NCBI GenBank assembly: GCA_947568835.1
Contig: OX387609.1
Location: 8,199,660-8,263,659 of the forward strand
From: Protonemura montana
Lineage: Eukaryota; Arthropoda; Insecta; Plecoptera; Nemouridae
DNA: 64,000 nucleotides
Reading direction: 5' to 3'
The translations under genes and the position numbers were made by a program. Positions 13,819 through 56,947 of the stretch are shown one piece after another. The notes under the pieces are model-generated. The model did not search any database, was not told where the DNA came from, and saw only the letters and a program-made list of their open reading frames with translations. Every line of letters starts with the position of its first letter. The stretch's first letter is position 1.

Positions 13819-14255
13819 ATTATTTATTTGTGGTGTTTAACGACGCACTGTTTTGACATCTGGCCATGCGGCACTGATCTAATGGCGTCGGTGATTGAGT
13901 GGATGATGATGAGGATGATGAACCTAACCTAGCGTAGAAGGGAGGAGGGAAAACCCGGTGCCGGCACGTACCCTACTCCTGTCAAAGAGCACCAAGGGGA
14001 CCACCGGCTTCACGTCCCTTCCGAAGAACGGTTCAACGCGAACAACAGGATTTCTCCACAAATCCATGCTGTCGAGAGGTTGATAAGCAAGGCGAATGAA
14101 GTTGCTGTACTAACTTTCATCCCTCTAGCCTCTCTCCCGAACAGAACTGGTCATGTGTATGATGGTCACCTATCCAATACCTGACTCAGCGCAGTGTTGC
14201 TTAACTTCGGTGATCTTACAAGAACCGGTGTGTCGAACACGCCAAACCGTTCGGT
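13819..14255 (-). repeat. 5S-derived SINE, full-length copy
   Basis: Read on the minus strand it begins with a 5S-rRNA-like head (ATCACCGAAGTTAAGCAACA in the cleaner copies; GTAAGATCACCGAAGTTAAG here), runs through a conserved body (CCTTCGGAAGGGACGTTAAG-like, AACCTAACCTAG on the plus strand), and ends in AAACACCACAAATAAATAAT. Length about 437 bases. Confidence 0.9.
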
Positions 14256-14562
14256 GGCTGGAAAGTTTTCTTACAAAAAATCAGAAATGGATGATCGGTA
14301 TGTCCCGTCGGAAAAGCAAAAAAAAAAAAATTATTTTCCTTTAGGATTAGATCGTCTGCCGTAACCATGTAAGTCTCATATGATAAGACTTGATAATTCC
14401 AGCGATGTAATTTATAAAATTCCTTATTTATTAATCTGAAATGTTTGTAGCGATATCTCAAACAACAGATTGCGTTAGCACTCGGGTCTGTTCGATAAAC
14501 CCAGGCTAAAGACAAGGACTCAAAATCATCGACTGCAACAGGCTCCAAGGAGATCGCGTTTT

Positions 14563-14700
14563 TCAGGGGCTCTGGTTGTAGCCGGTGTTGACGGGCTCGG
14601 TATAAGTAACGTGAAACCCGTTGGGAGCTTTGAGATCAGCATCCTGAGCCGTGGATCAACCTCCTGAGTCTCAGTGTCCTCAGAGTCGCCGTGACCACTC
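14563..14700 (-). pseudogene. Possible broken exon, unknown protein
   Basis: On the minus strand, after acceptor-like TTGTTCAG, one frame reads SGHGDSEDTETQEVDPRL. The other frame, shifted by one base, reads DADLKAPNGFHVTYTEPVNT and stops at 14563-14565. Together they look like one acidic then Pro/Gly-rich C-terminus interrupted by a frameshift. I do not recognise the protein, and chance is a real alternative. Confidence 0.25.
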
Positions 14701-15719
14701 CTGAACAATTGCAGACTGTCGGACCGCTACTATTCTATGGTCGGACTGTCACAGATCAAAAAAGTTGATGCCAAATGTTGTTGGGGTCACTTGAGGCCCA
14801 TAATACGTCCACAAATGAATTCCGAAGTGAGAGTTTTCTTGTAACAAGTGTATGGTATCCAAATTACAATGTTTTTTGGGAACACAACTAACAAGCTCCC
14901 GTTTCCTGCGGAATTTATCCTGTAAAAGTCTCTGCAGTTTTGTCATGTAAACTGAAATGACACAAGTTATTTTGTCTTTGAGTTCACCTAAGTCGACAAG
15001 CTTACGCCACATTCGAGAATGCCCTCCCTCCCCCTCTGTAACTTGTTGATCCCACCTGATGTGACACGTCAGGTCTGTAGATATTTCATTCACCACCCTA
15101 GCAGGGTCAATTGCAATTCAAATTGGTTCTGCATTTTGGAAATTTCTAAAACATCAATTAGCATTGTTAGTTTGTAAGCCGAGAAGATAAGTTGCAAGTT
15201 AGCCGATAGGTTGCTCTGTTCGGCAGGTTTTTGCTATTTATGGACACTAGGGCATGTTCCTTCAAATCGGAATGTTATAACTCTGGGTGGGTGCACCTGA
15301 TCGACAGCCAGGTAGTCGGCATTGCTGATGCACTGTGGCTGAGACCGGATTCCTCCAAGGACGCAAGAAGTCTGGTGCGTGCCGGAACTTGTTGAGGGAC
15401 CTACATTTTGACTTCAGTATTGAGAGGGTGCATTGGAGAGCCGTTTGACCAGCACGAGAGCAATATTTTCAGCCTCTGTGGCAAGGCAGTCTAAGGGACA
15501 GAGTGAATGCAGGGGCAAGCGATCCGTTCAATGGACGGGGCAAGTTTTCACATGCTTATCTTAGATTCTTCTCCGCCTGCATTTTGACTCAAGCATGTGT
15601 CCTTTATTCCATTAGTCATCTTTTCCGCGGGTGGAAGAAGATTAAGTGAAATCCATACCGAATCAGAAATATATGAAGTAGTATGCCCGATCACCGTAGT
15701 TCATGCTTATTGTTCTTCC

Positions 15720-15960
15720 GTTTCGTGTAAGGTAGTGTGGCCTGGTGGTTCTTGTGCTTGCTTCATGCCACGAAGATACCGCGTACCGTTGGAATACGAT
15801 AGCCAACATCCACCAGTGGTAGCTAGAGTCAGCAGACCTATAAATCTCAAAAATTCAAAAATTACATATATCCGCTTGGTCGTGCGGTTCAAGGCATCGA
15901 ATTCATCGCTCACAAGATCATAGGATTGATGAAATACTGGGTTTACAATCACGTATTTGC
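15720..15960 (+). repeat. Double-headed tRNA-like SINE, plus-strand copy
   Basis: Shares with the minus-strand copy at 16545-16830 the order: degenerate tRNA-like head, linker (CCGTTGGAATACGA, AACATCCACCAGTGGTAGCT, AGAGTCAG, CTCAAAAAT), then a second A-box-like head GGTCGTGCGGTTCAAGGCA. The two copies face each other. Confidence 0.72.
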
Positions 15961-16149
15961 CACGAAGCAGATTCACACTTTTGCCATTTTTTTCGGCGTG
16001 TGGTTTAGACGGTAGCAAAGTTGCCGCATTGCAATAAGATAGGTACTTCAGCCGCTCGACCACGAGAGCAAATAGGGAAGATTTTATGTAAACCGAAGCT
16101 GTTACTTCGGTCGAGAATTGTATCGTTAGGAGTTTAGTTAGTTTATTTA

Positions 16150-16245
16150 CATCAGTTATGTCCCGTAGAGCGTAGCACTGTGGTAAGCGCTGTGCTTCGT
16201 GTCGGGGAGGTAAAGCGTTCGATTACCGGCGCAGCTGCTTTTTGT
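16150..16245 (+). repeat. tRNA-derived SINE head
   Basis: CACTGTGGTAAGCGCTGTGC (A-box-like) and GCGTTCGATTACCGGCGC (B box) lie about 40 bases apart, then a CTTTTTG run. No full cloverleaf forms. Confidence 0.55.
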
Positions 16246-16544
16246 TCTCTTACCATCGAACTAAATATCACTTGACCAAATATGAAAAATTATTACAAGT
16301 CCAGAGTGTAGTACCAATTTCTACCAACAGGTGGCTCTGATGCTAGTTTTGTACTTAACTCTAGTTCCCATGTTCCTATATACTTGGTGCTAGACTTAGG
16401 AGCTGCACACGGGGTATAGGTGGGGTTTGGGGACGTGGGAACGACCCGCAAAATTGGCGGGTGCGACTGGCGCGAAGCGCCAGGAGCGCCCGGCAATTTT
16501 GCTACTGTCTAAAACATACGCCCAAAAGAAAATTGCGAGAGTGC

Positions 16545-16830
16545 AAGCCTCCGCCGTGAAACAGACGTGATTCGAACCCAGTACATCACCAATATTTTGA
16601 CTAGATGATCGATGGATTCGGTGCCTTAAACCGCACGACCACGATAACATATATGTTTTTCTGCATTTTTGAGGTATATGAGTATCCTGACTCCAGCTAC
16701 TACTGGTAGATGTTGAAGGTCGTATTTCAACGGTAAAAAATGTTCCTCCGTCGAGTGGATTCGATCCAGGCAGCGGGTGCAATTGACGTTACCGAAGAAG
16801 CGACCATACCATTGTGCCACACAGGTGGTT
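16545..16830 (-). repeat. Double-headed tRNA-like SINE, minus-strand copy
   Basis: On the minus strand head 1 is TGTGTGGCACAATGGTATGG ... GGATCGAATCCAC. The linker follows (ACCGTTGAAATACGACC, TACCAGTAGTAGCTGGAGTC). Head 2 is GTGGTCGTGCGGTTTAAGGC ... ACTGGGTTCGAATCACG. Each head has A- and B-box-like blocks at tRNA spacing. Confidence 0.75.
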
Positions 16831-17564
16831 ACGCATGGTGTAGTAAGATGAACCTATTTGAATTTCATGTTTAAAAACCCGGCCCACTATAGCGCGACAT
16901 GACACAGACTGCACTTATTGCTTAATTTGGTTTAGAAAAGCGTTCCTGTTCAGGGAATTTATCTTCCTAAATTAATACCATAGACGATCATTCATCGTCC
17001 TCGCAAGCAAGAGCTAGACCCGGCTGCCACAAATAGTAGTGCAGAAGCCCTCGGCGACACGATTATATGGGCTTTTACCATTTGCCATGATCGATCTCGA
17101 ATATGCAAGCATTAGAGCCAGACCAGTAGAACTCCAGTCGAAACCCGGTGCTCGGCGGCAGGGCCCCCATTCACTTATATTTGTAAGGTTTCACCGAACA
17201 CGCAGACGTGTTAAGACGCACCGTGAACCCCAGCTCAATCTGGTGGATATCAAATGTACCACGGTATTTTCCGAGTTCGATATTTTCGATTACTCAAAGC
17301 TCCCAGATCTTTCATCTAGCAGAACAACTGCCCTCCAGTGGCTGCGCCGGGATTGAAAACCGTTGTCCCGAAATTGGTCTACTCATTAGAATCCTGACCT
17401 TAACCAACATGACCACGTGTAGTTGAAAAAGACCACCACCGCTGCCGCCGCCGCAGGCCGCTGCCGTCGCCGCCGCCAGATGCTCGTCATCACACTGGCT
17501 CGGTTTGTAATTGTACAATTGTAGATAATAATTAAGTGAAGTCGCCGATTTAAGATCAACAAAA

Positions 17565-17640
17565 TATAGACTGGCTGGGATTCGAACTCGGTACGGTCGG
17601 ATGTTCTTGATGGATAAGCGACCTATGCAACCTGCCATCG
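17565..17640 (-). repeat. tRNA-derived SINE head
   Basis: On the minus strand GATGGCAGGTTGCATAGGTC (A-box-like) and CCGAGTTCGAATCCCAGCC (B box) are spaced as in a tRNA. The acceptor stem does not pair. Confidence 0.6.
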
Positions 17641-17844
17641 AGTTAATTTGAAATGTGAAGGGAAATAACAAATACTTGAATAGCAAAGAAGTGCCCCATC
17701 GTAAACTAGATGTTCAAGTAATGAGCTGGAAATCTGGCATTAAAAAAAATTGCTGGATTTAGCTAAAAGTTTTCTCTACAATGAAAACTTCTGCCAGTCA
17801 TTTTAAGCACACGGGAATTGTTTACATTTTGTGAAAATTAAAAA

Positions 17845-18190
17845 AGAACCCCCCTTCATTTTTGAGCAAATAAATAAAACCCAATTTTTGTAAATGTTAG
17901 CCTTTTTTTCCGGTGTTGGGCCAAACATTAACACGATAGCTTGTCACGCACTATGTCTTCTTTAAACAATTCAAGGAGGGACCCCCTCCCCCCTCACTCC
18001 TTCATTTTCGAGCAAATAAATGAAAACCAAATTCTTGTAAATGTTCACCACGAATGTTCTATCACGAACCAAACGAACCAATAGCTTGTCACATACTCTA
18101 TCTTCTGTGAAAAATTCAAGGAGGCACTCCTCCTTTATTTCTTGCAAATAAATCAAGGCAAACGTTTTTGTGGTTGTAAGCTTTTTTTTA
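17845..18190 (+). repeat. Tandem repeat, about 135-150-base unit, nearly three units
   Basis: CTTCATTTTTGAGCAAATAA, CTTCATTTTCGAGCAAATAA and TTTATTTCTTGCAAATAAAT start the three units. Shared inner words are ATAGCTTGTCAC and AATTCAAGGAGG(G/C)A. The third unit is truncated. Confidence 0.85.
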
Positions 18191-18209
18191 AAGCTAATCT
18201 GTCTTGTCC

Positions 18210-18210
<1 letters not shown>

Positions 18211-18253
<43 letters not shown>
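18211..18253 (+). repeat. (ATA)n microsatellite
   Basis: About 14 uninterrupted ATA units. It directly follows the tandem repeat at 17845-18190. Confidence 0.97.
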
Positions 18254-18256
<3 letters not shown>

Positions 18257-20139
18257 GAATGTTTATTAACAGTATACATTTAAATAAAATGTTGTTTCGT
18301 CATGTACAATTAAAAGTAAATTACAATCTAGATCAATTTTCTATGGAATTCGTCAATATGGTAAAACTCTTTATCCACTGAAATAATTAAGGGGTTCCGT
18401 TGTACGTGTAGGTGTTAAAAAGTGAGGAATAAAATGATAGGAATTCTAAATTTAATGTAAAGCAATTGCGTGTTAATGGAGGCTTATTATCGGAGGCGAG
18501 TTTTGTAGGGTCTTTTGTGGATGCGATATGTTGACTACCTGCCTGTACGTTACCCCATTACGTTTTTTTTTCAATATTTGCAGTGAAAATTCTAGTGAAT
18601 AATTTTGACCCCCAAGGGGTGTCAATAGGAGTGAAATTTTAAGGAGAGTTGAACGCAACCCCCTGTTTTTCTCTCAGGTCAAAACTAAGTGAGTTATTTG
18701 TGTTTTTAGCATAAAAATCGTTGTAGCGAGTTAACTATGAAGTGCATGGAAAATCTATACAGCTCATCGTGTTCAGGAGTGCAAACTAACCATTCAGTCA
18801 CAGTAAGGACGAATCATCAAAAATCCAGAAATATACAACCTAATGCGGGTGTTGCTTTAGCCTGGTGTTCCTCTGGACACATACTTTTGTAGATGAGTGC
18901 ATTTTATACAAATTATGGATTTCCAATGAGTAGGACCACCAGGCTGTGAATACTCACAGTTATTTACAGTTATTTACAGTTTTACTCCTACAAGCGTCTG
19001 CATTTTAATTAAGATTTTATCCTAATGAAAGTAGACTATTTCTTACTGCTACTTCGTCAGGATATTGTTTTCACGTCCGGTAACGAAGAAGTGGTAAAAT
19101 ATTCCACTATTCTTTCTTCAGCCGCACGTCGTGCTTAAGAAAGGTATTATGTCAAAAATGTTTGGAAAATATCAGTTGTTTTTATCTATTCGGTATCTCG
19201 AACAATGCGTTTTCGCTGTCAGCTGATAGAAGCCTCAGCCACCATTGCTCTTATCACAAATAAAACCGGTCAGCCAATGGGAGTCGAGAGTCAGCAGGTC
19301 GATGCCGAGAGGAGGGATCGACTGATGTCAGAGGAGGGATCGATCGAGCACATGGTGGGAAGGCGGGATCAATCGAGCACATGGCGTGTGACGTCACGAT
19401 GAACATGAACAGGCGATACTCTTCCGTCGGCTGGGCGCCTGGTACTAGAAGGCAATTTTACTTCACATTTTAGATAATTTTAGACGAACCAAACTGGGTC
19501 CGCCTGACGGGTAGGCAATCATGTGGTGTTTATGTGTATCACGGGTTGTCTACGAGCAGATTTATTTGTTTTCGTTTGACTTCGTTTAAAATAAATGTGA
19601 ATTTGCTTCAGTTTCATGCTCTGTTATATGATATACTTATAATCATTAGTGTAATTTTTAATTTTTAACCATGTTTACTACCTCTCATCTCTTCCTCAGT
19701 ACACACAATCAACAAACAACTGACAAATAGACTCCTTTACCTTGAGAGGGTGATCCAAATCTGATCGCACGTCCTTCCAGTGTAGGCACAGGGTAATTAA
19801 TTGAAATGAGTCCAAGTTTCCAGACCAGATAATACCTATTCCGGTGTATATATTCCGTTGTTTGAAGTTCTAAGAAAGAAAGCACTCCCCCAAGAAAGTA
19901 GCGGTTTCGTTCTCCCGGGTGAACGGCGTCCACTTAATCCATATATCATTCACCACTTCCTCAACGAGGACAATTCATTGGGTAGCCAATAAAAATAATT
20001 TTTTTAACTTAAAGTTTTGATAATTTTAGTCGGATAATTAGCCGGTAATTTTTGTGATAAAATATTTGTAATTTTTAGGCAAAATAATTAAATTTTTTTT
20101 TGACATTTTTTTTATATATTAAGACAATGCTTTGACGAG

Positions 20140-20314
20140 CACGATTTTACTATTGTATTGTATTATTTTATTTTATTTTTATTGTATTAATTATTATCGG
20201 TATAGCCAGTGTTTTATAAAATAATCTCTCAAAATGTCTGTACGCCAGCATTATTTAATGCAATGGTCTTTTTAATGACAATAAAATATATCTATCTATC
20301 TATCTATCTATCTA
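20140..20314 (+). repeat. LINE-like 3' tail with (TATC)n
   Basis: TTTTTAATGACAATAAAATA followed by six TATC units resembles the 3' end of a non-LTR element. No coding part remains. Confidence 0.5.
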
Positions 20315-22362
20315 ATTATGAGATCAACGATTAAAAATCTGTTTACGGCAAGGAATATAATACTTTGAGGTAAGTTTTCCACAAAAGCTTGAAATGCAGA
20401 ACAAGGATTTCGGCAGAATTCTAGCTAATCACATATTAAGTGCTGTATTGCGTATCAGACCCAAAGAAAACGAGAAAAATGCAAAACGACTTTAAAATGC
20501 TGTCTCAACAATTTAGATTAGTTTGGAATTTGGAAAAAATAACCTTGGTGTTATCACACTTCGCAGGTAGAACCTCTTTTATCTCGTTCGCCATTCTCTG
20601 TGAAAAGAAAGTTAACGAAGGAAAGATGTCAATGTATTTTTAGAAATAAGTTAGGGGGTGGGGGGTGGGGTTGTGCACCTAATCAGTCAGTAGGTGGTCA
20701 CTGAACCTTTGCCCTCGAGTTTGACTTCTCAACGCAGCTAGACCGTCCCTAGCTAGCAGTGCTTGGCGCAGAATTTCGAAATTCGCAGCGGTGTTGATAA
20801 GGAACACATGTGACATAGGTCAACAGATAGGTCAAATCTACCACGGACCAAGATAAGAAAGCTAAGTTAAAGTACTATTCAATACTTCCAACTATTCCGA
20901 CTTCATTTTTTCGACCTTAGAGTGGAAATTCGAGTGACGACATTTTACCCGAAAGAGTTAATTGTTGAGTTAAAATTTTAGGAGATGTCAAATGTATTTT
21001 TCTATTATTTTCTTAGATCAAAACTGATAGCGTTATTAAAGTTTTGAATTTAAAACTCGTTTTGGTCACTTTAAAAATTGTCAAATGGTCGTTTAAATGG
21101 TTTTTTTATGTTTAAATATTTAAGTGTTTGACGTTTAAATGATTGTTTTTTCTGGTTGTTTTGAAATAATCTACAGTCCAAATTATAAGCGAATCTTAAA
21201 AACTCCACTAATATGTTTTTACAAAAATATGTTTATAAAATAAAGAATTTCAATGTTATTAAATACAAACATGTATTTGTATTTGGAATTATTTGGAATA
21301 AAACATCGAATGACGAAATTTGACCCGCTATGGAGTGTTAATTGGGGTAGAAAATCATGTTGAGGCTAATGCCTTATTTTTTGTTTGAAGGTCAACACTG
21401 AGGGAAGTAATATAAGTAAAAAAGTAAAAAACTATTTGAAGATGAGATATTAAGTGGATGCAAAATCTGAATAGTCCAGTGCGTTAAGTCAGTCAGTCAG
21501 GCTGAGAAAATCGAGAAAAATGAAAGGGTCCCTCTAAATATTCAAAGCACAAAAGTTCCAGGGTCACTTACCATTGCGCACCTTTGTACGCGCAATGCAA
21601 ATGGGCCCAGCATTTTCTTCCAGAAACTTACCTGCATTCCCGAGGGGCGACAAGCCCGCCGTCCTCATGTGCAGCATGGGTGGCATTGCTGTCCCTGCAG
21701 GCGTTTACATGGACAGAGCCAGCACCAGATCTAGTTACCTGATGGGTAGGCTACCAGCGCATTACTAACGAATGATGGGTTGCCTACAAAAATACTTGCA
21801 GGAGTTAAGATAGAAAGACTGGGAGCAGTCTGAAGACAATAATACCTTTTATGAGGATGGTTACCTAAATAGTATTCTACCAGGGCAAAAGAAGTCTTAT
21901 TTATTGGATACCAGCAACCTCTTCCTCCCCATCCCCGGAATAAACAACATTCGAATCTTTGACTTGACATAAAATATTTTTCTGTGAGGAACGGTACCTA
22001 CATTTGATGTTGCATACCCAGACACCTGCTTGCATTCTTAAAGCTAAATTTGTCCTTTCCTTCCCTCATCCCCAAACCCAGTGGCTCAAGATCTTTTTTT
22101 CTATTATCAATTCACTAACTGTAAGAGAAATTACACCGGGTGTGTTTCGTTTCAAATGGGTAGGGAGTGGCTTAAATCACAGAAGTGAATTATTTTTGCG
22201 TTCTGCTCACGGCTTAATAAGTGCACTGCATTCCCTTTTCTTCTGAAAAAAAACCTAATTCTCAAGATGAACGATTCCAAATTGTCGTGCCAAATTGTAG
22301 TTTCTAGACGTCAAACACAGTAAACAACAAATAAGTTGTAATCTTAAGTTGCACACACGTTA

Positions 22363-22368
22363 TTTATT
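22363..22368 (-). promoter_or_regulatory. PSMD1 polyadenylation signal AATAAA
   Basis: Plus-strand TTTATT reads AATAAA on the gene strand, about 140 bases after the stop codon, so the transcript probably ends near 22340. Confidence 0.65.
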
Positions 22369-22510
22369 GATTAATACAACACAAATTGGTTAGTTTCAAG
22401 TATAGATGCCAGAGTGGCTACATCAAAAACGGCTCTAGATACTGTTTGCAGCAGGGATCCCTAGCCCCGGCATTGAAGCTAAATATTTTGTTGTCACTTA
22501 TTGTTGACAT

Positions 22511-33966
<11,456 letters not shown>

Positions 33967-34004
33967 TCACATAAAGTCAAGAGTCACAGCGCTAATACTA
34001 AACG

Positions 34005-34215: not shown

Positions 34216-35470
34216 AAATTTTCATATCAAAGGTCGAGGCGTTCAAAGGTGCACTGTTTTATAACGTCGCAGTTGAATAATAAACCTAACCTAGCCTAGA
34301 AGGGAGACGGTGAGGCCGATACGAATAAGGTGCCTTTACGATGACTCGAATCCATGCTGTCGAGATGTTGATAAGCAAGTGGAGTGAAGTTGTTGACCTA
34401 AACAGAGCTGATCGCGTGTATGGTGGTCACTCATCTAATACCTGGATCGCACGAGGACTTGTGATTACAACTCGCCAATCCGTGCCGGGCAATATGTGCT
34501 TTGCTCGGTCATCAAAGTCAAAGCATTGAACGTTTCGTACCAAAGACCCGGTGGTTACTCTGCTAGAATGTGACGGGCAGCTTTGATCTCTCTCTTCTCT
34601 CATCAGACTTTCCTATGATAACCTTCCAATCGCATTTTTAATGGTACACATTAATGTTTCTACTTAATTTATTTTTTAAATAATAAATTCAATTAATTTA
34701 TCAAAAACATGTTATTTTTTTTGCAGTTTTTTGCAATAATCTTTTACCAGAATACTCTAGGATATAATAATAATGTAACATATACTAGAATTTAAGACCC
34801 GTAAATTTACAATTTAATTGTCAGTAGCAAATAAACAAATAACAAGACAACGGGGCATAGGGGAACATGTTTCTGTAATTTAATCCATGGAAAGGACCTT
34901 GCCTGAGCAAAAATGAAACTGGTTAAAGATTTTTTGTTAATTAACTGAAGAATCAATTAGTTAACTTTGTAAGGTAAACTGACCTATGTTAATAAAATAA
35001 AACCGACCTAGTTAAAGTTCCAATTGTTTACTCATGATCTAGAGCTTTTTGTGTAGCTAAAGAAGTTCGAAAGACAAAATAAATGCATGTTAGTTTATTT
35101 TGCCAGTGATTTTAAGAAAACTAACGTTCAATTCTGATTGGGAGCGACTACTGGACGTTTCTTGTGAATGGAGAAGACGTAACAGTGATTGGATGCTAAA
35201 AGCAGGTCAGTCCATCAGAGGTTCTATGTGATGACCTTGGAAGTTTTCGAGAAAATATATAAGAAACCAATTGACCTCCTATGGGACTACTAGAGGAGGT
35301 TAGATGATCCATATGAAATATATCTGTACGCTGTATTGTCCATGTGCAAGGAATGAAATAGAAACGCATGGTGATTTATTATTCTCTCCCTCCGTTTCGC
35401 TGTTAACTTCTTTTTGGGCCGTTGCGTTTTCCGCCCCTGGCCAGAACGTGAGTCGATCGTTTCGATCACA

Positions 35471-35496
35471 CCCTCCCCCCTCCCCCCCCCCCCCCC
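35471..35496 (+). repeat. Poly-C/pyrimidine run
   Basis: CCCTCCCCCCT followed by 15 C; low complexity. Confidence 0.95.
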
Positions 35497-40303: not shown

Positions 40304-40898
40304 ATGGAAGTCGGGCTCCACAGGAACCACACGTGGCTTCACTGTAGGATCATCGACGACACGTGTCTTCGTCACGGCGACAACGACACCGACCTGCAAT
40401 GCGTCGACACGGAAAACCAAGACGTCTTCGCGTGCAGTCTAGCGAAATGTAGCTCGTGTTTGGAAAACTATGTCGTGAATTTCACTTCGGAGCTGATGAA
40501 TATCAGCGCGTCTTGGATCTCTGTCCCGCGGGCCGTCAACGGCAGCGGTCTCTTGGAGATGTTGGTCGAATGTTTAACGAACAGTTCGACGTCTAACGAA
40601 ACGTTTCCGTTTGAAAATCAAGGCGCGTTGGCCGGCGATTTGTTGCAATGCACGATCAAGGATGTGATACGGACTCAAGATAGTTGGGGTAACGATCGAG
40701 TTGGTTATGACTGGAGTTTTCTGTTCGTCGTTGCGTTCATTTTCGCCGGTGGGTTGGGCAACATACTCGTGTGTCTGGCTGTGTGTTTGGACAGAAGATT
40801 GCAGAATGTCACCAACTATTTCTTGCTCTCGCTGGCGATCGCTGACCTTTTGGTTAGCCTATTTGTGATGCCGCTAGGGGCGATTCCGGGATTTTTGG
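40304..40898 (+). CDS. 5-HT2: 5-HT2-type serotonin receptor, first coding exon (partial gene)
   Basis: ATG in a good context (GCCATGG) with an in-frame TGA six bases before it fixes the start. 198 codons run to donor TTGG|GTAAGT in phase 1. Residues 1-136 are an extracellular N-terminus with several N-glycosylation motifs (for example NFT at 59, NIS at 66, NGS at 79) and ten Cys. TM1 spans about 137-161 with N153 in [18 protein letters not shown]2 spans about 172-193, [20 protein letters not shown], with D181, the conserved sodium-site Asp of class A receptors. The TM1-loop-TM2 stretch reads like insect 5-HT2 receptors, which couple to Gq in neurons (known for the family). The rest (TM3 with the amine-binding Asp, DRY, TM4-7) must lie beyond the window. 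5-HT2A versus 5-HT2B is not decided. Confidence 0.92.
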
Positions 40899-43137
40899 GT
40901 AAGTAGGGGCATAAAAGGTGACGTGGGTGATCCCGGATGGTGACGCGCATGTTCAAGGTCATGCCATTGACACAGTCCGGGACGCTGTCGTACAGTCTAA
41001 TGGAAATCAATAGAAATTACTTCTGTGCAACAAAACATCTGGAGTTTTTGACGTCCAACTTTACAAAACCAAAAAAAAAAAGTTTTGAGAGACTCAAACA
41101 AGTCGGAGAAGTTTATTAAAGATTTGTTTCTGTTCAGTGACAACGAGTCTTCTTAAGATAAAAGCGTAAGTTTACGCCGGCGTAAAAATACTTAATTTCC
41201 CCGCAAGCGTATCTCAGGCAGACTCCAGATCTATAAATCACGTTGCTATAAAGAGTCGTGATAAATTGACTATTTTACACACAGTTTTGTGGTTCATAAG
41301 CAAAAATGGCACCTGCTACAGTCACATCTGGGACCATTTGACGTTCATCATAATCGAACAATAAAGAAAAGTGGATACATGGTAAAAATGCAAAGACCTT
41401 TGTCCTGCCCACTTATTCCTACCCACTTATTCCTTCACGTGTCTTCCCCACCTTGGTTTGACATTTCAGGATGAACGAGCTATTGTCCAGGAGCAGAAAT
41501 GAAACGTAGCGGTTCACTAATTAGTCTAGTTCCAAGAACGAACGTAACGGACAATAAATTTTGCAAGCGATTTTCTCCCCTCTTGGTTTTTAGAAACTGG
41601 GACAAATAAGAAAATAGAATAATTGACTTACGAGCACAAAAGCGAGTCTCATCTGAATCGGCAAGATTCCGATTTCAAAACTTTGCACGAGTCGATTGAG
41701 CGATCACATAAGTTTGCTAGTAGCGTTGATCATCAGATTCAGACTTAAAAAATACAAATAAAACGGTAGGAGAACACGCGAATAATGCACCCGACTGCGA
41801 CAAGGTTAGAGCGTCGATGTTAGACAACACCTATACGAAACAAAACAGAATAAGTGAACACGATGCTCAAAGTACAACCTTGCTTGACTTGGGGTAATTA
41901 TATAAAACAACTGCACACCTCACGAAGAATACACACTCTACCAGTAAAGTGTTGCTTATTTTAATCTTATATCGTGCATGTTTACAAGCGATGTCTTCTA
42001 AAGACCTTTGCCAAGCATGTTTGGTGATTCGTGATTGCTGCAAATAAGAAACTTGGCTAAATGTAATGGTGCCATCGAAGAAGTTCAGTTAAGGAACAAT
42101 TCCAGAGTTCTCAGGCGAGTGTTTAGTTTGTACGACAATAAAATACGGGGTTTCTCTGGAAGGCGATCGAAAAGATGGCTGACTTTTGCATGGTCAACTA
42201 ATTTCAAGAAAAACATTTACGGAAGGTTGGGATATCAATGGAGGCTGAGAAAATTGAGTAAGTCTTGAAATCTTGGCGTACTTTCATCGGGTAGGAGTAT
42301 CTTGACTGTCATCTTAAAGTTTAGTTGTTATCAATAAATGCACTTGAGAGTTGGTCGAATGGAATTAACTTTGGCAATTAATTCGATTTAAAAATAAAAT
42401 ATTTTTTGGGAACTTTTACGCATTTAGAAAAGGTACACAAAAGGATAAGGATAGATGTTGTGCTAAATGTTACACAGTTTAACATAAAATAAAAAATTTT
42501 GAAAAAATTTTGCACAAAATAAACTTGAAAAACAAAAGTGTTAGTTTTTATAACATAGGTAAACATAACAGCTAATATTTATACAGAAATACTCGTACAA
42601 ACAGCCCACTTCCCCAGCAACGTCAAAACCTCCACGTCTCCGCGAGCAGTTTCACAGCTTTTTCCTAGCTATACCGGAGTACCTCCAAAAAGTGGCTTGC
42701 ATCGCACTGACGCCGTCTCCAAATCGCCGTGAGAACCACCGGTCAGTAACAAGGGGCGACAGGTTTCACGGTTAGGCCACCCCAGCAACATGTACCACAT
42801 AGAGATCATTCACCGCCGGCAACGGTCGGTTCCAGAACGGGAGGTTGGAGTACGTTCATTACAAAATGTCACTCGCGACCAGTGCCACTACGGTTGTAGA
42901 ATAGCAGCATGCATTTTTCGGCAAATCATCTCAACTTCAAAATTATAAAAGACGCACGTATTTGATTTAAAAACTACCTAGAACAGAGAAAGTGCCCTCA
43001 GCAAACCAATTTTTTGCACGATGACAGCTGATCTAATCTGATTAAGGAGATTTACATAAGTTTAGATCAATTAATTGTCACGTAGGGGCGTCAAAACAAA
43101 GTTTCTTGCAAGTGATTCGAAGGAGAAATCTCTGTTT

Positions 43138-43572
43138 TTTTATTATGGTGTTTAACGAAGCACTGTTTTGACATCTGGCCCTGCGGCACTGGTCTAATGG
43201 CGTCGGTAAATGAGTGAATGACGATGAGGGTGATGATGAACCTAACCTAGCCTAGAAGGGAGGAGGGGAAATCTGGTGCGGCACGTAGTCTACTCCTGTC
43301 GAAGAGCACCAAGGGGAACACCGGCTTAACGTCCCTTCCGAAGGACGGTACAACTTGAACAGCAGGATACCTCCAGAAATTAGTTCTGTTGAGAGGTTGA
43401 TAAGCAAGACGAATGAAGCTGCTGTACAAACTTTTATCCCTCCAACCTCTCTCCCGAACAGAACTGGTCATGTGTATAATGGTCACCCATCCACTACCTG
43501 ACTCAGCGCAGTGTTGCTTAACTTCGGTGATCTCATGAGAACCGGTGTTTCCAACACGCCAAACCGTTCGGC
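43138..43572 (-). repeat. 5S-derived SINE, full-length copy (best for the head)
   Basis: The minus strand opens GGTTTGGCGTGTTGGAAACA, then CCGGTTCTCATGAGATCACC, GAAGTTAAGCAACACTGCGC and GTGGATGGGTGACCATTATA. Insect 5S rRNA has CGGTTCTCGTCCGATCACCG, AAATTAAGCAGCGTCGG and a TAGATGGGGGACC box at the same spacing. The tail is AAACACCATAATAAAAA. Confidence 0.93.
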
Positions 43573-45980: not shown

Positions 45981-46061
45981 CTGACCAGCCTCTTGAGCTG
46001 CCTCAAGGTGCTCAATCGAAGGCGACGTCACGGAAGCGACGACGTCAGGTAATAGCCACAT
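45981..46061 (-). other. Possible short minus-strand coding exon
   Basis: ATG at 46061-46059 opens 27 codons (MWLLPDVVASVTSPSIEHLE then AAQEAGQ) directly followed by CAG|GTGATT. About 75 bases further (45906) an acceptor CTACACAG precedes another short open stretch, but its phase does not fit a long reading frame. Weak. Confidence 0.12.

Positions 46062-47725: not shown

Positions 47726-47729
<4 letters not shown>

Positions 47730-47764
<35 letters not shown>
47730..47764 (+). repeat. Poly-A run of 35
   Basis: 35 uninterrupted A after ACATTTTCT. It could mark the end of a retroposed sequence, but no AATAAA and no parent gene are seen before it. Confidence 0.97.
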
Positions 47765-47765
<1 letters not shown>

Positions 47766-48944
47766 AACTGTCACCGAACGTGGATTTTATTAGAGTGAAA
47801 ATCCTGGCGCGAGGATATCAATCTTGTGCATCACGTCTCGGAAGACGTTCACCGAGCACAAGATTCAGAGAATTTACTTTATCTTTCAACTCTGAAATGA
47901 TCTGGCACGTGTGAGCATTGACTGCTAAAGGGAAGTCAGGAGGCGACCGGCAGCGTGAAATAGAGCCGAGTTCTTATCCCTTTTTTTCGAGGATTTTCTG
48001 TGTGGCCTTGTATAGTCTCGACGTCCGCTCCGGCTTAAGAAGGTGACAAGATGAAAGGTATAAAGTTAGGACGTATCGCAGGTGCATGCGCAACGGTAGG
48101 CCAGGGAAATTCACGACTTTAACGGGAGGGAAAAAAAAAGGAAAATCTCTGAGAGTTCTGTGAAAGCGTCGTAAAAATTACATTGCGGATATTGGGGCTT
48201 GAACTTGAACGTTTTATAGCTGATTTTTGTAGATTTTTACGTTTAAATTGAGTTTTAATGAATGATCGAAGAAATAACCGATGCAAAAAATGAGAATATA
48301 GCTTATAATAAGGTTAAGATTAACTGCCCTATCACTTTTTATCAAAAATTTCCAAAAAAACTATAATTTCATAAAAAAATCCTCGACGCTACCCAGTTTA
48401 TTATTGAATGTGTTAATATCAACGTCAATATTCTGCACACTCGATTAGCAAACTCGATTACAAATCAATCAGCTAAATGCGGTCGAATACATGACCAACG
48501 CGAACAATGAACAATTCGTTTCTGTTAATATTTGAAGATGAACGAGCAGCACATAAAACATCTTATGCATAATAGAGGATGCTGCCAACGTTCGTCAGAA
48601 ACGCGTGAAATATCGACAAAAGGGAGTATTAACCTGAACGGCAATGGCCTAACCCATGGTCTAACATTGTCCTAAGTAGACTGGTCAGTAGCCAACAAGG
48701 ACAACATAAAAAGCAAGAGGACCACCGTAAAATGCCCCGAGCAAACCGGAGATTGACAAATCCTGGCCCAAAACAAGATTGAAACTACCTAACAAATATT
48801 TTCAATTCGCTTCGTCGATAAAATCTGACAGAGAAAAACGAAGCATTGGCCATGTAAATCGTAATTTTTTTTCGAAGGGGTCATGGACTTATGTGGTCCA
48901 ATATTTTAGGAAGCCAGGCGAGACGGAGATAGGGAACGCAGATC

Positions 48945-49030
48945 AATCTTGTTGGCCAAGCTTCCTGGCCAGAGGTGTGTTTAAAGGGGGACCTCAATTG
49001 CGGGTTCGAGCCCCCGGGCTCATGTGAACA
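48945..49030 (+). repeat. tRNA-derived remnant
   Basis: GTTGGCCAAGCTTCCTGGCC (weak A box) is followed by GCGGGTTCGAGCCCCCGGGC with a perfect B box. No acceptor stem. Confidence 0.45.
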
Positions 49031-49198
49031 CACTTTTATGGCGTGGTTTTTTTCTTCTTTAAATTGGCGACAGCTAAATTTGTTGTTGGATGATTTATTG
49101 TTTTTCTATGCCGTAGGTTAAGGTATAAAAAAGGTTTCATAATAGTAAGAACTGGTACGTTACAGAAACGTTCACCTAATGATAAAAAGTTTAATAGA

Positions 49199-49441
49199 TT
49201 ATTCTTGTGTTTAACGACGCACTGCCTCGACTACGGGGTCTTAAAGCGTCGGTTAATGAAAGGGGGATGATAATGACGTGACTGGATGATAGCGGTGTTG
49301 TCTGCTACAGTGGAGTGCACCAAGAGGATATCGAAGATGACAGGGACACCATCCGAAGGTGGTAGAAACACCTGAGACACATGATTAACTCACCATACTA
49401 ATCCAGGCTGTCGTGAGGTTGGTGACAAGATGAGTGATACC
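49199..49441 (-). repeat. 5S-SINE, head-less diverged copy
   Basis: TGTTTAACGACGCACTGCC, AGTGGAGTGCACCAAGAGGA, CCATCCGAAGGTGGTA and CCAGGCTGTCGTGAGGTTGG follow the SINE body in order. The 5S head is absent. Confidence 0.78.
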
Positions 49442-51381
49442 TTCGACAATTTATCCTTTCATTGTATGCTCTCAATGTATGTTCATTACGGCGAAACTTT
49501 ATTTCAAGTACCTACTTTATGATGTTTTGAGAAGGTAAGTCGGTTCCTTTGTTGAAGTCTTGTTGTAGTTTTGTTGTTATTTGATGACGAATGAAGAGAA
49601 ATGAAGCATGCGAATTGTTACTCGTTTCGCAAGACTTTTATTGGGCTTGGAATCGAGTCTGATTGTCTTTTGAATACGCAGGGTTTTGAGTAAATATCTG
49701 GCCGGAAAATGTGAGCAAATCTGGCCAAAATGAAAATCTATTAAGGTTTTGAAAGGAAATCTCATTTTCCATGAGGTGCTAGCAAAAAATGTGCTACGTC
49801 AGAGTAAAAAAAAATCACAAAAATTTCCATACCGGGCGAGGGCCGAAAAGCCATAGAGGTATACCCCTGCCCCCCTCAGCATAGCACTAGTCCAAAGACT
49901 GGACACGGTATTTTGAAAGGCCTCTGCCAGTGAACCCTTTGCTAATCAAATTCTATTTTTAAAAGTATATCGGGAGTGAGTGACTACATTTTCAGTTAGA
50001 GATGAAATAGAAATTTTCTGTAAGTGTGTTTCTAGATTACGATCGAGTTTTTTTTTAGATTGGATTTGTTACCAGCTGAACGGGTCTATGCGCAAGCGGT
50101 GAGCACGGAATTGATTCACGTAAAATCTAAGAAATGTGCACTTATTTTTTGGTTCAAAATATTACTGTTTGTAAACGAATAAGTTTTCGCGGAGGAATAT
50201 AAAAATGCACGCGGTCTTAGTGGAAGATAAAACAGATTTTCAACTACCTTTAAAACGCCATAAAAGCGAGGTCGTACCGCCGCATTTATCACCCCGTTAT
50301 CAATCTGAAAACTGTATAATTTTCTAATTTCAATAAATACGTGAAAACGTTCATCTAGATGGCTTTAACACTCGTCATATCGAGTTACTCCAAACATTTC
50401 TCATCCATGAATCGTGACATTTATGACTCGGCTTTTACTGTCGCATCGCGCCCATTGTGATTTTCGGCACCCAACGACCGGGGTTCGGATTCAGAGACGG
50501 TGCACATAATAGGTAGCGGCATACACACGCGAGATATCTACTGAACATTCATCTTGGCGTACTAGAAATATATCATTGGAAGCTGGAGAAAGGTCATGAT
50601 GCCCAACGTTTTCTCGGATATAGCAGATCTGTAAGAAAAACCGATTTTCGATCCCCTAGGCTTTTGGCTTCGTTTTAGTACATTTTCCCAGGTGATTTGG
50701 GTTTTCTTTCGAATGGGAGTATTTGGTTACAATACGGAGAAATCTGAAGTTTCAATTTTCACATTATCAGCACCTAGAACGAAAATGAAAATAAAAGTAA
50801 TTTCGGTCCTTGCTAACGGGCCCATATATTTTATAGTATAAGACGTAAAAAAAAAAGACTTCTGCATCTTATTTTTGCCAAGAAAAAAGTAATATAAATT
50901 ACGAATCCGTATGCCAATAATGAAAATCTTTCCAATAACAAAATTTCCATATTGTAGTCGATAAATTTCCGGCGAAGCAAACACAGCCTGAATGTAAGCC
51001 AATGATTTATAGAATCCCCAACTACGACAGGCTTTATTATTGACATGTTTTTTATCACAAACTTTATCTTGGCTGCCCGCAGAGCTGAAATGTCTTGCGA
51101 TGATTGCTATCCCTCGAGTACCTCAGTAGCAGAAATAAGGTAGACATAGGCGTGGTCAGAATTAAGACGTTATGATGAAGCCATTAGTGTAACTAGGTAA
51201 AGAATCTTACCTCAAATGCAAGGAGTAAATGCTACGAAAATAGATGGAAAATTACAAGTACCTACACTGTGAATCTAAATAAGATAAGAATACTAAGAAA
51301 CTAAGATAGAAACTAGATAGAATAAGATAGAAACTATACAATATTATCTACACTTAATCGATTTGTTTGCAAACCATCAAA

Positions 51382-51605
51382 CGCGTTGGCGTGTTTGAAA
51401 CATCGAAGTTAAGCAACACAGCACTGGGTCAAGAATTAGATGGGTGACTATCATACACATGACCAGTTCTGTTCGGGAGAGAGGTTGGAGGGATGAAAGT
51501 TAGTACAACTTCATTCGCCTTGCTTATCAACCTCTCGACAGCATGTATTTGTGGAGGAATCCTATTGTTCGCGTTGTACCGTCCTTCGGAAGGGATGTAA
51601 AGCCA
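51382..51605 (+). repeat. 5S-SINE, plus-strand copy, 3' truncated
   Basis: The only copy in this orientation. GCGTTGGCGTGTTTGAAACA, CGAAGTTAAGCAACACAGCA, AGATGGGTGACTATCATACA, then GTTCGGGAGAGAGGTTGGAG and CCGTCCTTCGGAAGGGATGT. The C-box-like AGATGGGTGACT is well kept. The body ends at about 224 bases. Confidence 0.9.
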
Positions 51606-52767
51606 ACAAATACATTTTTAAAAATCAATGTTCAATATTCAACGTAACAACATAACAGCAGAAAGAATATAAATAGCATAATAGTTCAAGAAGTACACTA
51701 GGAACAAGAAAAATATGTCTAAAATATCAAATTGCAACCAAATCAATTTCTCTCAAAGTAACCACCGATTTCTCCAGAACATATCACGACAAGCCCGTGT
51801 CACCCTTTCCAACCAACCACTTCGTGCCTACCCACCTTCGCTCATGTCAAGCTTTTGATACCCGGAGCCCGCGCCTCGGGGGGCATGAAAACACCGCACC
51901 CCCCGTCGATATATGTCACCATGGCTGGCGTGACATGCCACCCCGAGCTTCAATAACAGGCTTACCGATTACCATCTTGGAGTTCTCGATGTGTACACAC
52001 CTAGGAACTAGCAGCTTGGCGTGCCTTATGGCGGGATCCCGTGTGTACGTTCACGTGTTCGTACCGTGATTTCGTATCTGTGGATGGTGTTGAACGAGCA
52101 CGGTGAATGTGTTCAACTCGTTTTGATACGATCGTGTGGATTAGGAATTAGTGATCGGTGTGGAATGGATTTTATGGGATTATTCAGAGACTATTGCTGT
52201 TTATCATCTGGATTAAATGAACGCGAGTAGTAGTACATTGGTTTTTTGATAATTTCTGTTGAAGTTTAATTTTGACCATTTCTGTGGAAAATGCTGAGCA
52301 GTTTCGCAAGTTGTTCAACAAAACGTTGTGGGAAACATTACGATTAAATAGGGGTGCAAATCTAAAATAAATTATTCTGTTATGGGACTTTATTTTGCTA
52401 GCAAAATATAGAAAATTACTTTAGAAGTATGTTTACTTCAGAAAAAATCGCTAAAATACTGGCGCGCCACATAAAAGAAAATGTTCCACACACACATTTC
52501 TTTTCCAAAAGTCGCAATGTCATGCGCTTTTTACTCAGGAAACGATTTCCTCCCAGTGATAATAAAGAAAGACATTATGAACTTTTAAAGCTGTCCTTGA
52601 CAACCTCCCAAGCAGAGCATCACAGAAAGCATTGCATTATTGCCCTTACCTTTAAGTAGGTATGCACCCAAACCCTACGCTACCTTTTAGGTTAGGTTTG
52701 TGCTGAATTCAAACCTGTCGACCATACCGCAGGGTTAAAGTTCTTTGCAATGTGAATTAAGTTTCTG

Positions 52768-52907
52768 AACTAACGTTCATCCGAACGTTACTACCGAACA
52801 GAACTGGTCATGTAAGTCACCCATCCAATACCCGAACCAGCGCGGTATTACTTAGCTTCGGTGATCACACGAGAACCGGTGTTTCCAACACGCCAAACCT
52901 TCATCTG
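52768..52907 (-). repeat. 5S-SINE, head-only copy
   Basis: Holds CCGAACAGAACTGGTCATG, CACCCATCCAATACCCGAAC and TTACTTAGCTTCGGTGATCA, the complement of the 5S-like head; here GAAGCTAAGTAA keeps the C seen in many animal 5S genes. Confidence 0.85.
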
Positions 52908-53565
52908 TCATCACTCCATTGGTCATCCAACTATTCTCCATTCAAACACATAACAAATCTAATTACTTATCCACGTTAAATTTGTTTACAAAAATATCGT
53001 GCGATTTGCGCAAGCCATGGATCTTCACCATTAAACACTTCTTCACCATTAAACAAACAGAGTTCGCCGTCGCAGAGCGTTGAACGGATGCAAAGTACTG
53101 CTAATTGCTGAGTACACGTTTCAAATAGTTGAAATACAGTCGTGACCCCCCCGCCCCCAAACAGGACACGTAGGACTAGTCACGTGACGTGAGCCAGACT
53201 CAGAGGCAATTAGACTCGAGATGAATTACACCCGTGGAGGCGTCGGCCGGCTACTAACTCTCCCCGACGTTCGGCTAGCTACGCTTCATTTGGTCCCGAG
53301 GAGGCAAGAGATAGAGCAAGCAATGCTGGTGCAGTTCGTTATACCTGTAGAGTTCAGCGCATAGGGGCACAAGCCACCACTAATATTTAGAAGACTTGAA
53401 AATAATCGAAAAACAAGAAACACGTATTTAAGTCAGTCTAGAGTCTTTAAGAACATGGTTTTAAGTCCTGGGGATTCTAATTCTGCGTGCAAAGCCCGGT
53501 ACTTCTCAAGGTTATACAGGTTATAGACGATGGTTGTTGCGCTGGTAGCAGTCGAACAGTTTTAG

Positions 53566-53835
53566 TTGTGTTTAACGACGCATATTTTGACTGTGAAACT
53601 GTTGACTTGGTAAATGCTAGCTCATCTTGATGAGGGTGATGATGAAAAAGTGTATGGGAAGGTGACGGTGTGTAGTGGGAATATGTTCCCCTTCTGAAGG
53701 ACAGTGGGGATGTGTCAATCAGGATTCCTCGAGCAATCCAATGCTGACAAATGACAACAAACTTTTCAGGTGTTTGATGGTCACCCATCTAAACCACGAA
53801 TCAACACAATGTTGCTTAACTTGGACGGGTTGCAA
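53566..53835 (-). repeat. 5S-SINE, diverged copy with internal deletions
   Basis: GTTGTGTTTAACGACGCA, TTGATGAGGGTGATGATGA, CCTTCTGAAGGACAG and TGATGGTCACCCATCTAAAC, then AATGTTGCTTAACTTGG, appear in the SINE order. Confidence 0.78.
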
Positions 53836-56459
53836 AATGTTAGCTAGACGGAAATGGAAAGAGTTTCTGGCGTTGTTTACAATGACAACCTTGGGAGTTG
53901 ATACGAGATGAATAAATGAGTTCTGCTTAAGGTTGCTTGTCGACAAACGTACAATAGGAAACATGGCTCGCACGGGAACAAACTTTGAGCAGGGATACAA
54001 TGGTAATGCTGGCAGGGAATTTGGATACACTAAGCTATCGCATGCAGTGAAATGCATTCGTTTATGAGGGTTTGACATACAATTCAAATATTATACTGTT
54101 CGAAAATAGACAAACGTTATTTGATAACTGTCAAAATCATAACTTCTACAAACTAGGTACCACAAAATGTGAGTTGGGGCAAGACCAGTCATTTTCCCCA
54201 GCTGAGAAATGAAATTCTGAAATACATATTTCACCGTCACTATCACCGGAAACTCATCGCCAATGTTCGCCATTATTAACTTCCCATTCGCAATCGACAA
54301 AAAAGCAGTACGATACCCATTCAACCTACACATTGATCGATAGTTCGATGGCAAATGCGAAATTCTTCACCACCTTTCCACATTCTCAGTGTGCTCGACC
54401 GGCACAAAAAGCATGGACGAAGTTGAATGGCATTGTCCAGCTGTTTAGAGAACGTTGGCTTTATGCAAAGTTTCAACTTCCGTACAATCTCGCCCCTTTG
54501 CATGATGTTCTCGCCCATCAAAAACACCTTCGAGCGGGCGATTGTTCGTTATTTGCATTTCAAAAATGTCCTGGAGGCCGTCGAGTGTTCACGGTCGCCT
54601 TAATGGCGAGCGACACTATGGGAACCATAGCTAAAAAAGCGATGCCAGTGTTGATCAATGCATGAGCGTAATGCAGGGTTAAGAATCCTTGGTCGACCCT
54701 ATTTTCTCGCTAGATAATAGCGAAGACTGGGACTTCCAATTGATCCACTGGTGCAGGGCTAATACCAGCTAAAACTGTTCGAAAATTCTCTTCAAGGACA
54801 AAAGTCTGACAAAGGAAATATATTCAGGAGGGTAGTGCTGAACAAAATGGTGTTCTGACCCCTCCGACCTTGGGGAGGGGTGGTCAGGGGGAATAAATGA
54901 AATGTACAAACATTTTGTGGCAATATTGAATTCCTGTACTATTTATAACATTTGAATACTTATTTTTGTCACGTTTTCGGGATGTGATTTGCGTCTACAG
55001 GTCTCATCAAAAAATGTTGTGAATTTGATTTAATTTGTTAAATTCCATGAAACACTCGAAAGATAGCGTGAAATTAGAGCATGCCATAACCATAGACAAT
55101 GCATCCAAGATTATGTCAAATGAATGAAATTGGCTGAACGTAAAAATTTTGAATTCCCAAGCGGAGAATCGCAAATTATTACCACGAACGCTTATTGCGG
55201 TGTTTCATTCATGCATTCCTTAATTCCTAGTTTCATCAGCGAGAATTTTACTGCTTTCTAGGCTTTTTAAAAGATCTCTTCCAGTCGTCGGAATTACTTC
55301 AAAAATCCTTCGCACTCTGGCCAGTCTCGCTGCCGCATCAGAAGACTTCTAATTATTGTGTCTAATTGAAGAAATCAGTGTAATTAAGTTGATGGAGCAA
55401 AGGTCGTGCGCACGCATGCTCGGCGAGGGTTAACAATTTGAGAGAATGTAAATATGGTGCGAAGAAAGTGTTGTGTAGGCGGCGGTAATTTCATTATATA
55501 CAAAAAAAAACTCAGAAGATTGTTCGGAATTTGCGTTAGAAGTGAATTGTGTTAAAATTTGACGTGAAATTGCTGGGAAAAAAAAACAAAAAGAGTTCTG
55601 ATTTGTTAGTTGTTTGTAATGAAAACTGAAAAAAAAAGTGTTTAGATATTTAAAAAAAACTTTTGCATACTTTGACGTCTTGGAATTGTTATTTGTTATA
55701 CTGAAGCCATAAAGTTTTATTATTAGTTTAAATATACTGAAATTTCAGCGGATAATTTACTTTGATCGCTTCTTACCACATGCTTGAAACGGCAGCGATA
55801 TTTCCAGCAAGCTTTGTCTCTGATTTAAAAAAACACGGCCCTGCGGGTGCGAAAAACATCATTGTCTTTTGTCTTTTAACCCCACTCACAGAAAACAAAG
55901 AATTATCGCTTCAATTTTGCACGGGAGCAAGGATTTATCGGAAGATCTTGCCAAAAATCCGTTGAAAACGCGATTTATTCTTTGGCATAAAGGGATATGT
56001 GACACCCCAAGGTTCCCAAAGGGAGTCACAGATACCCGAACTGTCGGGGGGTAAATTGCAATAGTCATTGTTGGTACAACTGAGCAAACTTGAATGTGCA
56101 TGATAAAACTGACAGTATATACGCACAGTGCGTCCGTCCGAACGAATTTATTAACGAACGCACAACGAGTTTAATTGGATTTACTGCATCAAGTTTTTTG
56201 CATTGATTTTTAAGTCAGCCGACTAGAAAGAGATTAAATTTAAAACTATATACATAACGAGTAAACTTGTGGAAAGAAGGATTTTGTTTGGGTGATATTT
56301 TAATCCTGGGAAAGCTGAATAGTCATTTAACGAGCGGGTTTGGCGTTTTTTCTATGAAATATTTCAAGAGATATATTGTGTTTTAAATTTGTTCGTGGCC
56401 AATAAAACTGGGTCGGTATCTTTCAAAATCCACGTTATTCTATCCTCCGATTGATTTAT

Positions 56460-56895
56460 TTTATTTGTGGTGTTTAACGACGCACTGTTTTGACATCTGG
56501 CAATGCGGCACTGGTCTAATGGCGTCGGTGAATGAGTGAACGATGATGAGGATGATGATGAACCTAACCTAGCCTCGAAGGGAGGAGGGGAAACCCGGTG
56601 CCGGCACTAGGAATATTCTTATCGAAGGTTACCAAGAGGACCACCGGCTTAACGTCCCTTCCGAAGGACGGTACATCTCGAACAACAGGATTCCTCCACA
56701 AATCCATGCTGTCGAGAGGTTGATAAGCAAGGCGAGTGAAGTTGCTGTACTAACTTTCATCCCTCCAACCTCTCTTCTGAACAGAACTGGTCATGTGTAT
56801 TTATGGTCACCCATCCAATTACTGACTCAGCGCAGTGTTGCTCAACTTCGGTAATCTCACGAAAACCGGTGTTTCCAACACGTCAAACTGTTCGG
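56460..56895 (-). repeat. 5S-derived SINE, full-length copy
   Basis: Starts TTTATTTGTGGTGTTTAACG and ends at ACACGTCAAACTGTTCGG. Head complement GTGTTGCTCAACTTCGGTAA. Length about 436 bases, nearly the same as the copies at 13819 and 43138. Confidence 0.92.
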
Positions 56896-56947
56896 TTCTC
56901 AATCCTCTGAGGACAGTTACCAGCTTGGACATTGAGTTTATATGTAT

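Follow-up and report, generated by a model that had tools for sequence, protein, structure and literature searches.

SINEs (short interspersed elements) whose head derives from 5S ribosomal RNA (rRNA) have been described in fish, mammals and insects, with HaSE3, PxSE4 and PxSE5 among the insect families (PMC3272025, PMC8010984, PMC10886601), and SINE3-1_TC of Tribolium has been named as an insect SINE3 family (PMC3272025, PMC8010984). Here we describe a family of this type from a stretch of 64,000 nucleotides of the stonefly Protonemura montana (contig OX387609.1, positions 8,199,660 to 8,263,659; hereafter the window) and from the genome to which it belongs. The majority consensus of the 20 best genome matches is 432 nt long without tail and comprises a full-length 5S-like head, a body of approx. 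310 nt and a tail of short repeats. As a SINE3-type family it is of a known kind. What seems to be new are the tandem arrays of promoter units inside the copies, which appear to have been retroposed at least in part and lie near contig ends, and the retained 5S fold of the head. Taken as a whole, the observations are very probably best explained by a SINE3-type family derived from 5S rRNA, with retroposition helped by a long interspersed element (LINE) and with tandem promoter units.

According to the accessible parts of the published accounts, HaSE3 of Helicoverpa armigera and PxSE4 and PxSE5 of Plutella xylostella likewise combine a 5S-derived head containing an A box, an intermediate element and a C box with an unrelated body. 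HaSE3 and PxSE5 have a LINE-like 3' end, and target duplications were reported for HaSE3-type copies (PMC3272025, PMC8010984). Tandem head units, which are present in the SINE studied here, find no mention in the accessible text of these accounts (PMC3272025, PMC8010984). The partner LINE of HaSE3 is of RTE type as reported, whereas that of the present SINE is likely I-like, the families being compared by description only. Cassandra and Ajax likewise reuse the 5S promoter, but in long terminal repeats (LTRs; PMC10886601, accessible part), and no LTRs were seen in this SINE.

The sequence-only reading of the window had proposed a family of 5S-rRNA-headed SINEs, which was borne out by Rfam, by repeat finding and BLAST, and by the genome-wide consensus. 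The genome (258 Mb in 34 contigs, the window lying within contig C12) was searched with the copy at 13819-14255 as the query. There were 6,482 first-look candidates, of which 40 were scored and 20 were cut out (L001-L020); these were picked by similarity to the full-length query, and L001 is the window's own copy. All 20 began with the identical base (ACCGAACGGTTTGGC...) and ended in (AAT)n or similar repeats. Exact terminal repeats of 10-14 nt were present in 16 of them, whereas mismatched pairs averaged 4.8 nt and reached at most 10. One copy was identical to the consensus; 17 had 1-8 differences from it, L010 had 16 and L001 had 21, and 12 of the 20 lay within 1% of it. The SINE family is recent, and the element is real and has recently been active as a mobile element.

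With up to three mismatches allowed, the start of the head matched 7,670 times in the genome (3,849 and 3,821 on the two strands), the body 9,119 times (4,601 and 4,518) and the tail 8,364 times (4,261 and 4,103). The reversed patterns, used as controls, gave 0 matches each. The head counts are not copy counts, because some head matches belong to another tandem type with a 92-nt period (C1:1225163-1225466). In this second tandem type the very start of the SINE head is repeated with a period of about 90-92 nt, at the locus just given and at L069:1-146.

A second sample was anchored on the tail and consisted of the first 20 exact tail matches on contig C1 (L063-L082), 13 of them within the first 2 Mb. 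The start fell within consensus bases 1-5 in 12 of these 20 copies, and exact terminal repeats of at least 9 nt were found in 11 of 19, against 0 of 342 mismatched pairs. The sequence-only reading had asked for many genome copies with a shared head and target-site duplications, and for a common 5' end, and the thousands of matches, the identical starts and the exact repeats agree with it on each point. As expected of a SINE3 element, the head is 5S-derived, the unit is dispersed in high copy number and shares its 5' end among copies, and target-site duplications are present. Scattered ordinary 5S pseudogenes, instead of a mobile unit, would also have heads that match 5S over the full length, but with body and tail common to thousands of matches, a shared 5' end and target duplications this explanation is ruled out for all practical purposes.

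Many of the SINE copies contain tandem units, and such a multiplied promoter segment has rarely been described for elements of this kind. Within the SINE copies L010, L017 and L037 the segment from approx. base 49 to base 139, which spans the 5S promoter region, is repeated head to tail every 91 nt. These three copies were found prior to the search with the junction pattern and have an identical unit junction, which unites two sites sharing AGTTA. The junction (GGATGAAAGTTAAGCAACACTGCGCTG, up to two mismatches) matched 25,579 times genome-wide (12,823 and 12,756; reversed control 0), corresponding to about 2.3 Mb of units and a mean of 2.8 junctions per body match. In the tail-anchored sample 11 of the 20 copies had 2 to 14 or more heads and 9 had one or none, a share that applies to this sample and not to the genome as a whole. 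The window itself contains no arrays of the 91-nt unit.

Mobile elements with a variable number of tandem units include mouse L1, whose promoter monomers have promoter activity, and SVA with its variable-number tandem repeat (VNTR). Both are polymerase II elements, whereas the present SINE has a 5S-type polymerase III promoter. No 5S SINE with multiplied promoter units was described in the titles and abstract openings of the papers listed on tandem units, VNTRs, satellites or 5S structure in SINEs, with Repbase and most subscription papers outside this scope. Promoters of the 5S type are thought to be weak in retroposed copies, being dependent on upstream signals (Kapitonov and Jurka, as cited in the accessible part of PMC3272025). 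The present family numbers thousands of copies, its young members are nearly identical and its promoter units are multiplied, which makes it a natural test of escape from this limit.

The arrays were unevenly placed along the contigs. In the tail-anchored sample on C1 multi-headed copies made up 11 of 13 in the first 2 Mb and 0 of 7 at 2.6 to 5.9 Mb (Fisher p = 0.0005). Among the exact matches listed for C1, the intervals 0-2, 2-19 and 19-29.1 Mb held 17, 1 and 14 array loci, 13, 32 and 29 tails, and 4, 27 and 18 body-pattern loci, respectively; the near-absence from the middle of C1 was confined to the arrays, unlike tails and body pattern. An exact two-unit pattern matched 176 times genome-wide, and the 100 matches listed resolved into 67 loci on C1-C5, C11 and C12. 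Of these listed loci 65 lay in the outer 20% at either end of a contig and 56 in the outer 10%, with a minimum length taken for C3. Recombination, weaker selection or an insertion preference may be the cause of this bias.

Comparable arrays are the SINE-derived satellites of squamate reptiles, which according to the accessible part of their description are also tandem repeats of a partial SINE, bounded by the rest of the SINE, with a subtelomeric preference (PMC10702118). SINE multimers in other animals are mentioned by the same authors (PMC10702118). The arrays described here share these properties: part of the SINE is repeated in tandem, SINE termini stand at the array ends, and the preference for contig ends is as given above. 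The reptile satellites derive from Squam SINEs and not from a 5S SINE (PMC10702118). The present family also differs in that its unit covers the whole 5S-type promoter region, and in that one copy implies retroposition of a multi-head RNA. It illustrates how a SINE can give rise to satellite-like arrays close to the ends of contigs.

One might ask whether the arrays spread mainly by riding within a larger repeated element. At each of the loci L061 and L062 array-bearing SINEs stand in inverted pairs, and the two loci are 95% alike over 5.4 kb, including sequence that does not belong to the SINE. However, the 30-nt 5' flanks compared in the tail-anchored sample, which came from ten of its eleven multi-head copies, were mutually different, and we consider such passive spread improbable as the main route. 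L061 and L062 were also considered as a foldback transposon with the SINE arrays as terminal inverted repeats; this reading was rejected because the likeness continues beyond the arrays. The inner part of the L061/L062 repeat contained no reading frame of more than 82 amino acids.

Another explanation is that the tandem units are a pure satellite, grown in place inside single-head insertions, and that a multi-headed RNA never moved. In 18 array-bearing stretches about 57 of 139 units had their nearest neighbour within their own element, where 9.3 were expected, and higher-order periods were visible by eye in some arrays (L061, L041 and L065). The clustering of arrays near contig ends, as in the reptile satellites (PMC10702118, accessible part), points in the same direction. 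On the other side stands the common junction in L010, L017 and L037, and above all the copy L065. Its first base corresponds to consensus base 101; seven complete units follow, then body and tail, and an exact 14-nt terminal repeat flanks the copy. L065 speaks against growth in place, because a single-head copy truncated at base 101 could not regenerate bases 49-100. The start in the middle of a unit together with the exact duplication is most simply read as an RNA that was already multi-headed. We concluded that retroposition of the multi-headed RNA itself is strongly implied by this one copy, and we regard growth in place as doubtful as the sole origin of the arrays.

Several points nevertheless weigh against a spread of the arrays by retroposition. 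The case for a moved multi-head RNA rests on a single copy. Exact terminal repeats of at least 9 nt were found in just 4 of the 10 testable multi-head copies (L071, which extends beyond its locus, was excluded), as compared to 7 of the 9 other copies of the sample; L063 and L075 had 11-nt terminal repeats with one mismatch. The neighbour counts given above disagree with a model of pure retroposition: since likeness among the units of one element exceeds chance expectation, growth in place also occurs. Transcripts starting within the arrays, with 5' ends near consensus base 92, were considered as a separate idea, but L065 (base 101) was the only tail-anchored copy with a start near that position, and the idea was not supported. 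Truncations at bases 46-49 (L041, L058, L077 and the left array of L062) coincide with the unit boundary and are no more than suggestive of a hotspot.

The candidate partner was sought in ten 3' regions adjoining reverse transcriptase matches (L083-L092), a selection and not a full survey of LINEs. Among the first seven (L083-L089) no partner was found, as blastn gave chance-level matches only. L088 and L089 share just a short CGTTAA motif with the SINE, a likeness no better than chance, as 316 and 110 of 2,000 shuffles did equally well. Of the three later regions L092 gave no match, L091 ran into a SINE, and L090 gave a match of 22 nt, in which its end GTGCCGTTAAACCCCACAAA aligned with the SINE end GTGCGTCGTTAAACACCACAAA in 19 of 20 bases with one 2-nt gap. 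When the chosen 140-nt piece of L090 was shuffled 2,000 times, only 1 shuffle was as good. L090 reached a local score of 28; the chosen pieces of L088 and L089 reached 15 and 17, and the loci L083-L087 and L092, each scored over its full length, 15-21. By eye the C-terminal peptide of L090 resembles those of L088 and L089, both of which hold an RNase H domain. From the 3' match and this likeness to RNase H-bearing peptides we infer that an I-like LINE is the likely helper of the SINE.

The following observations speak against this assignment. The match is short and was sought in a piece chosen by eye, the 80-amino-acid piece of L090 matched no Pfam family, and none of the other nine 3' regions contained a convincing match to the SINE (L091 being unscored). 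The tail repeats are also different, AAT or AAAT in the SINE and AAAC-like in L090. No source was found for the SINE body. As separate observations, the RNase H-bearing LINEs represented by L088, L089 and 114 genome matches share a conserved 3' end of the GCGCCGTTAAGCCCCAATATTCATTC type, which has ATTC repeats (RNase H was checked in L088 and L089 only), and many of the top-scoring reverse transcriptase matches were clustered in two terminal regions, C11:1-930000 and C16:27.3-29.6 Mb.

The consensus head was compared with the host's own 5S gene by an alignment with free end gaps, and 91 of 106 aligned columns were identical (gaps and ends excluded). The score of 67, against a maximum of 17 in 1,000 shuffles, shows a head much closer to 5S than shuffled sequence is, in line with the sequence-only reading. 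We take the A box, intermediate element and C box to lie within the head. For the heads of PxSE4 and PxSE5 approx. 63% shared with Bombyx 5S was reported, a figure that is not directly comparable with ours (accessible part of the accounts). The predicted folds of SINE head and host 5S had an alike layout and energies of -43.3 and -42.9 kcal/mol, respectively. In helices II and III all 17 predicted pairs were kept, and the two pairs that changed were both compensatory (C-G to G-C and A-U to G-C). Helix I kept 8 pairs although both strands had changed. In a simulation at least 8 of its 9 pairs survived in 0.3% of trials with six random changes per strand, and in 9.5%, 2.8% and 1.0% with 2, 3 and 4 changes; the number of changes that applies is different with and without an assumed one-base shift. 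In helices IV and V the two folds differ in detail; the pair-by-pair comparison covers helices I-III. The SINE head has largely kept the predicted 5S fold.

These data favour selection for the fold, though they come from one lineage only and an earlier 5S gene may already have had the changes. The corresponding alternative, that the fold was merely inherited from an ancestral or variant 5S gene without any selection on the SINE RNA, has to be taken seriously, and we judge its chances to be somewhat short of even. In its favour are the single lineage, the restriction of the pairwise comparison to three helices, and the finding that 2.2-4.5% of randomly mutated 5S sequences reached the energy of the head (1,000 trials at each of five levels). 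The compensatory nature of the only two changed pairs in helices II and III, and the 8 pairs held by helix I despite change on both strands, argue against it. In our reading the kept fold would reflect selection acting on the SINE RNA, for instance to bind a 5S-binding protein, and the family is a case for asking whether such an RNA has to preserve the fold of the RNA from which it derives.

In the mechanism we propose, RNA polymerase III would transcribe the SINE from the 5S-type internal promoter in the head. The reverse transcriptase of the I-like LINE would recognise the 3' end of the SINE (CGTTAAACACCACAAA and short repeats), copy the RNA and insert it with target-site duplications of about 10-14 nt. 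The promoter segment would first have been duplicated by a jump from one AGTTA-containing site to the other, the two lying near bases 49 and 140. Local exchange, mostly near contig ends, would also have enlarged the arrays. A further proposal, which we put forward tentatively and hold to be rather unlikely in its entirety, is that the 91-nt segment constitutes variable-number tandem units that are themselves retroposed, as a polymerase III counterpart of the L1 promoter monomers. Any unit could then start transcription, and copies truncated at the 5' end could still be transcribed. A full first head would keep the folded 5S-like domain that recruits a 5S-binding protein and would bring the RNA to ribosomes making the LINE protein.

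Within the window five Rfam 5S matches exceeded the gathering score, all on the minus strand and all covering model positions 1-120. Five of the six heads placed by the sequence-only reading were confirmed in this way, and because they cover the whole model they are full-length 5S-like heads, not merely the promoter blocks which that reading had recognised. The sixth, at 51382-51480, does coincide with a plus-strand copy, which is shortened and remained below the Rfam threshold. The count of at least nine copies holds if decayed pieces are included, i.e. four near-full copies, two partial ones at 51.4 and 52.8 kb and another three, at 34.3, 49.2 and 53.7 kb, that are badly decayed; only four are near-full, and the one at 49.2 kb consists of a tail match and a likeness by eye, with a single further weak match in the genome. 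The four near-full copies (13819, 33266, 43137 and 56456) span 429, 408, 429 and 433 nt by alignment, simple tail excluded, and diverge by 5-15% from the genome consensus. A clear target-site duplication was not found in these four, the best terminal repeats being 8-9 nt with one mismatch.

Table. Copies and fragments of the SINE in the window, and the paired array-bearing copies on contig C1.
Feature	Position	Strand	Details
SINE, near-full-length	13819..14255	-	head 14135-14255; Rfam 5S 48.6 bits, model 1-120; 21 differences in 429 aligned bases from genome consensus
SINE, near-full-length, older, 15% diverged	33266..33684	-	head 33581-33684; Rfam 38.7 bits; 62 differences in 413 bases
SINE, near-full-length	43137..43572	-	head 43452-43572; Rfam 63.7 bits, top 5S score among the five heads; 30 differences in 431 bases
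SINE, near-full-length	56456..56896	-	head 56775-56896 (Rfam); imperfect terminal repeats TCAGAGGAT and TCGGAGGAT
SINE, partial, consensus 44-250, head shortened, 3' part missing	51401..51604	+	91% identity over 207 bases
SINE head and start of body, consensus 8-169	52747..52904	-	head 52793-52904; Rfam 41.9 bits; 81% identity
SINE head fragment, badly decayed, consensus 49-116	53756..53822	-	76% identity
SINE copy, badly decayed	34277..34444	-	three short matches
Possible old relative, body and tail by eye, without recognisable 5S head	49195..49480	-	26-nt tail match, E 0.002
SINE fragment, 42 nt	1555-1596		match to element consensus
Inverted pairs of array-bearing SINEs, approx. 2.7 kb apart (L061, L062)	C1:20982800-20990200, C1:23319400-23325700		within larger repeat, 95% over 5.4 kb

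Other repeats were present in the window. Another dispersed family occurs at 8618-8774, 13223-13328, 31317-31473 and 57150-57255, with 66-81% identity to the reference copy, and a tandem array of CTAGGCTAGG-like units lies at 29623-29922. The genome's own 5S genes scored up to 117.5 bits. At one locus (L038, C11:1-10000) 5S genes alternate with single genes for the histones H2B, H2A, H4, H3 and H1, as labelled from translations; the H4 peptide did not reach the Pfam cut-off for core histones. From the distances between 5S matches a unit of approx. 9.5 kb with three 5S genes seems to be repeated along the first approx. 105 kb of C11, one such unit having been read.

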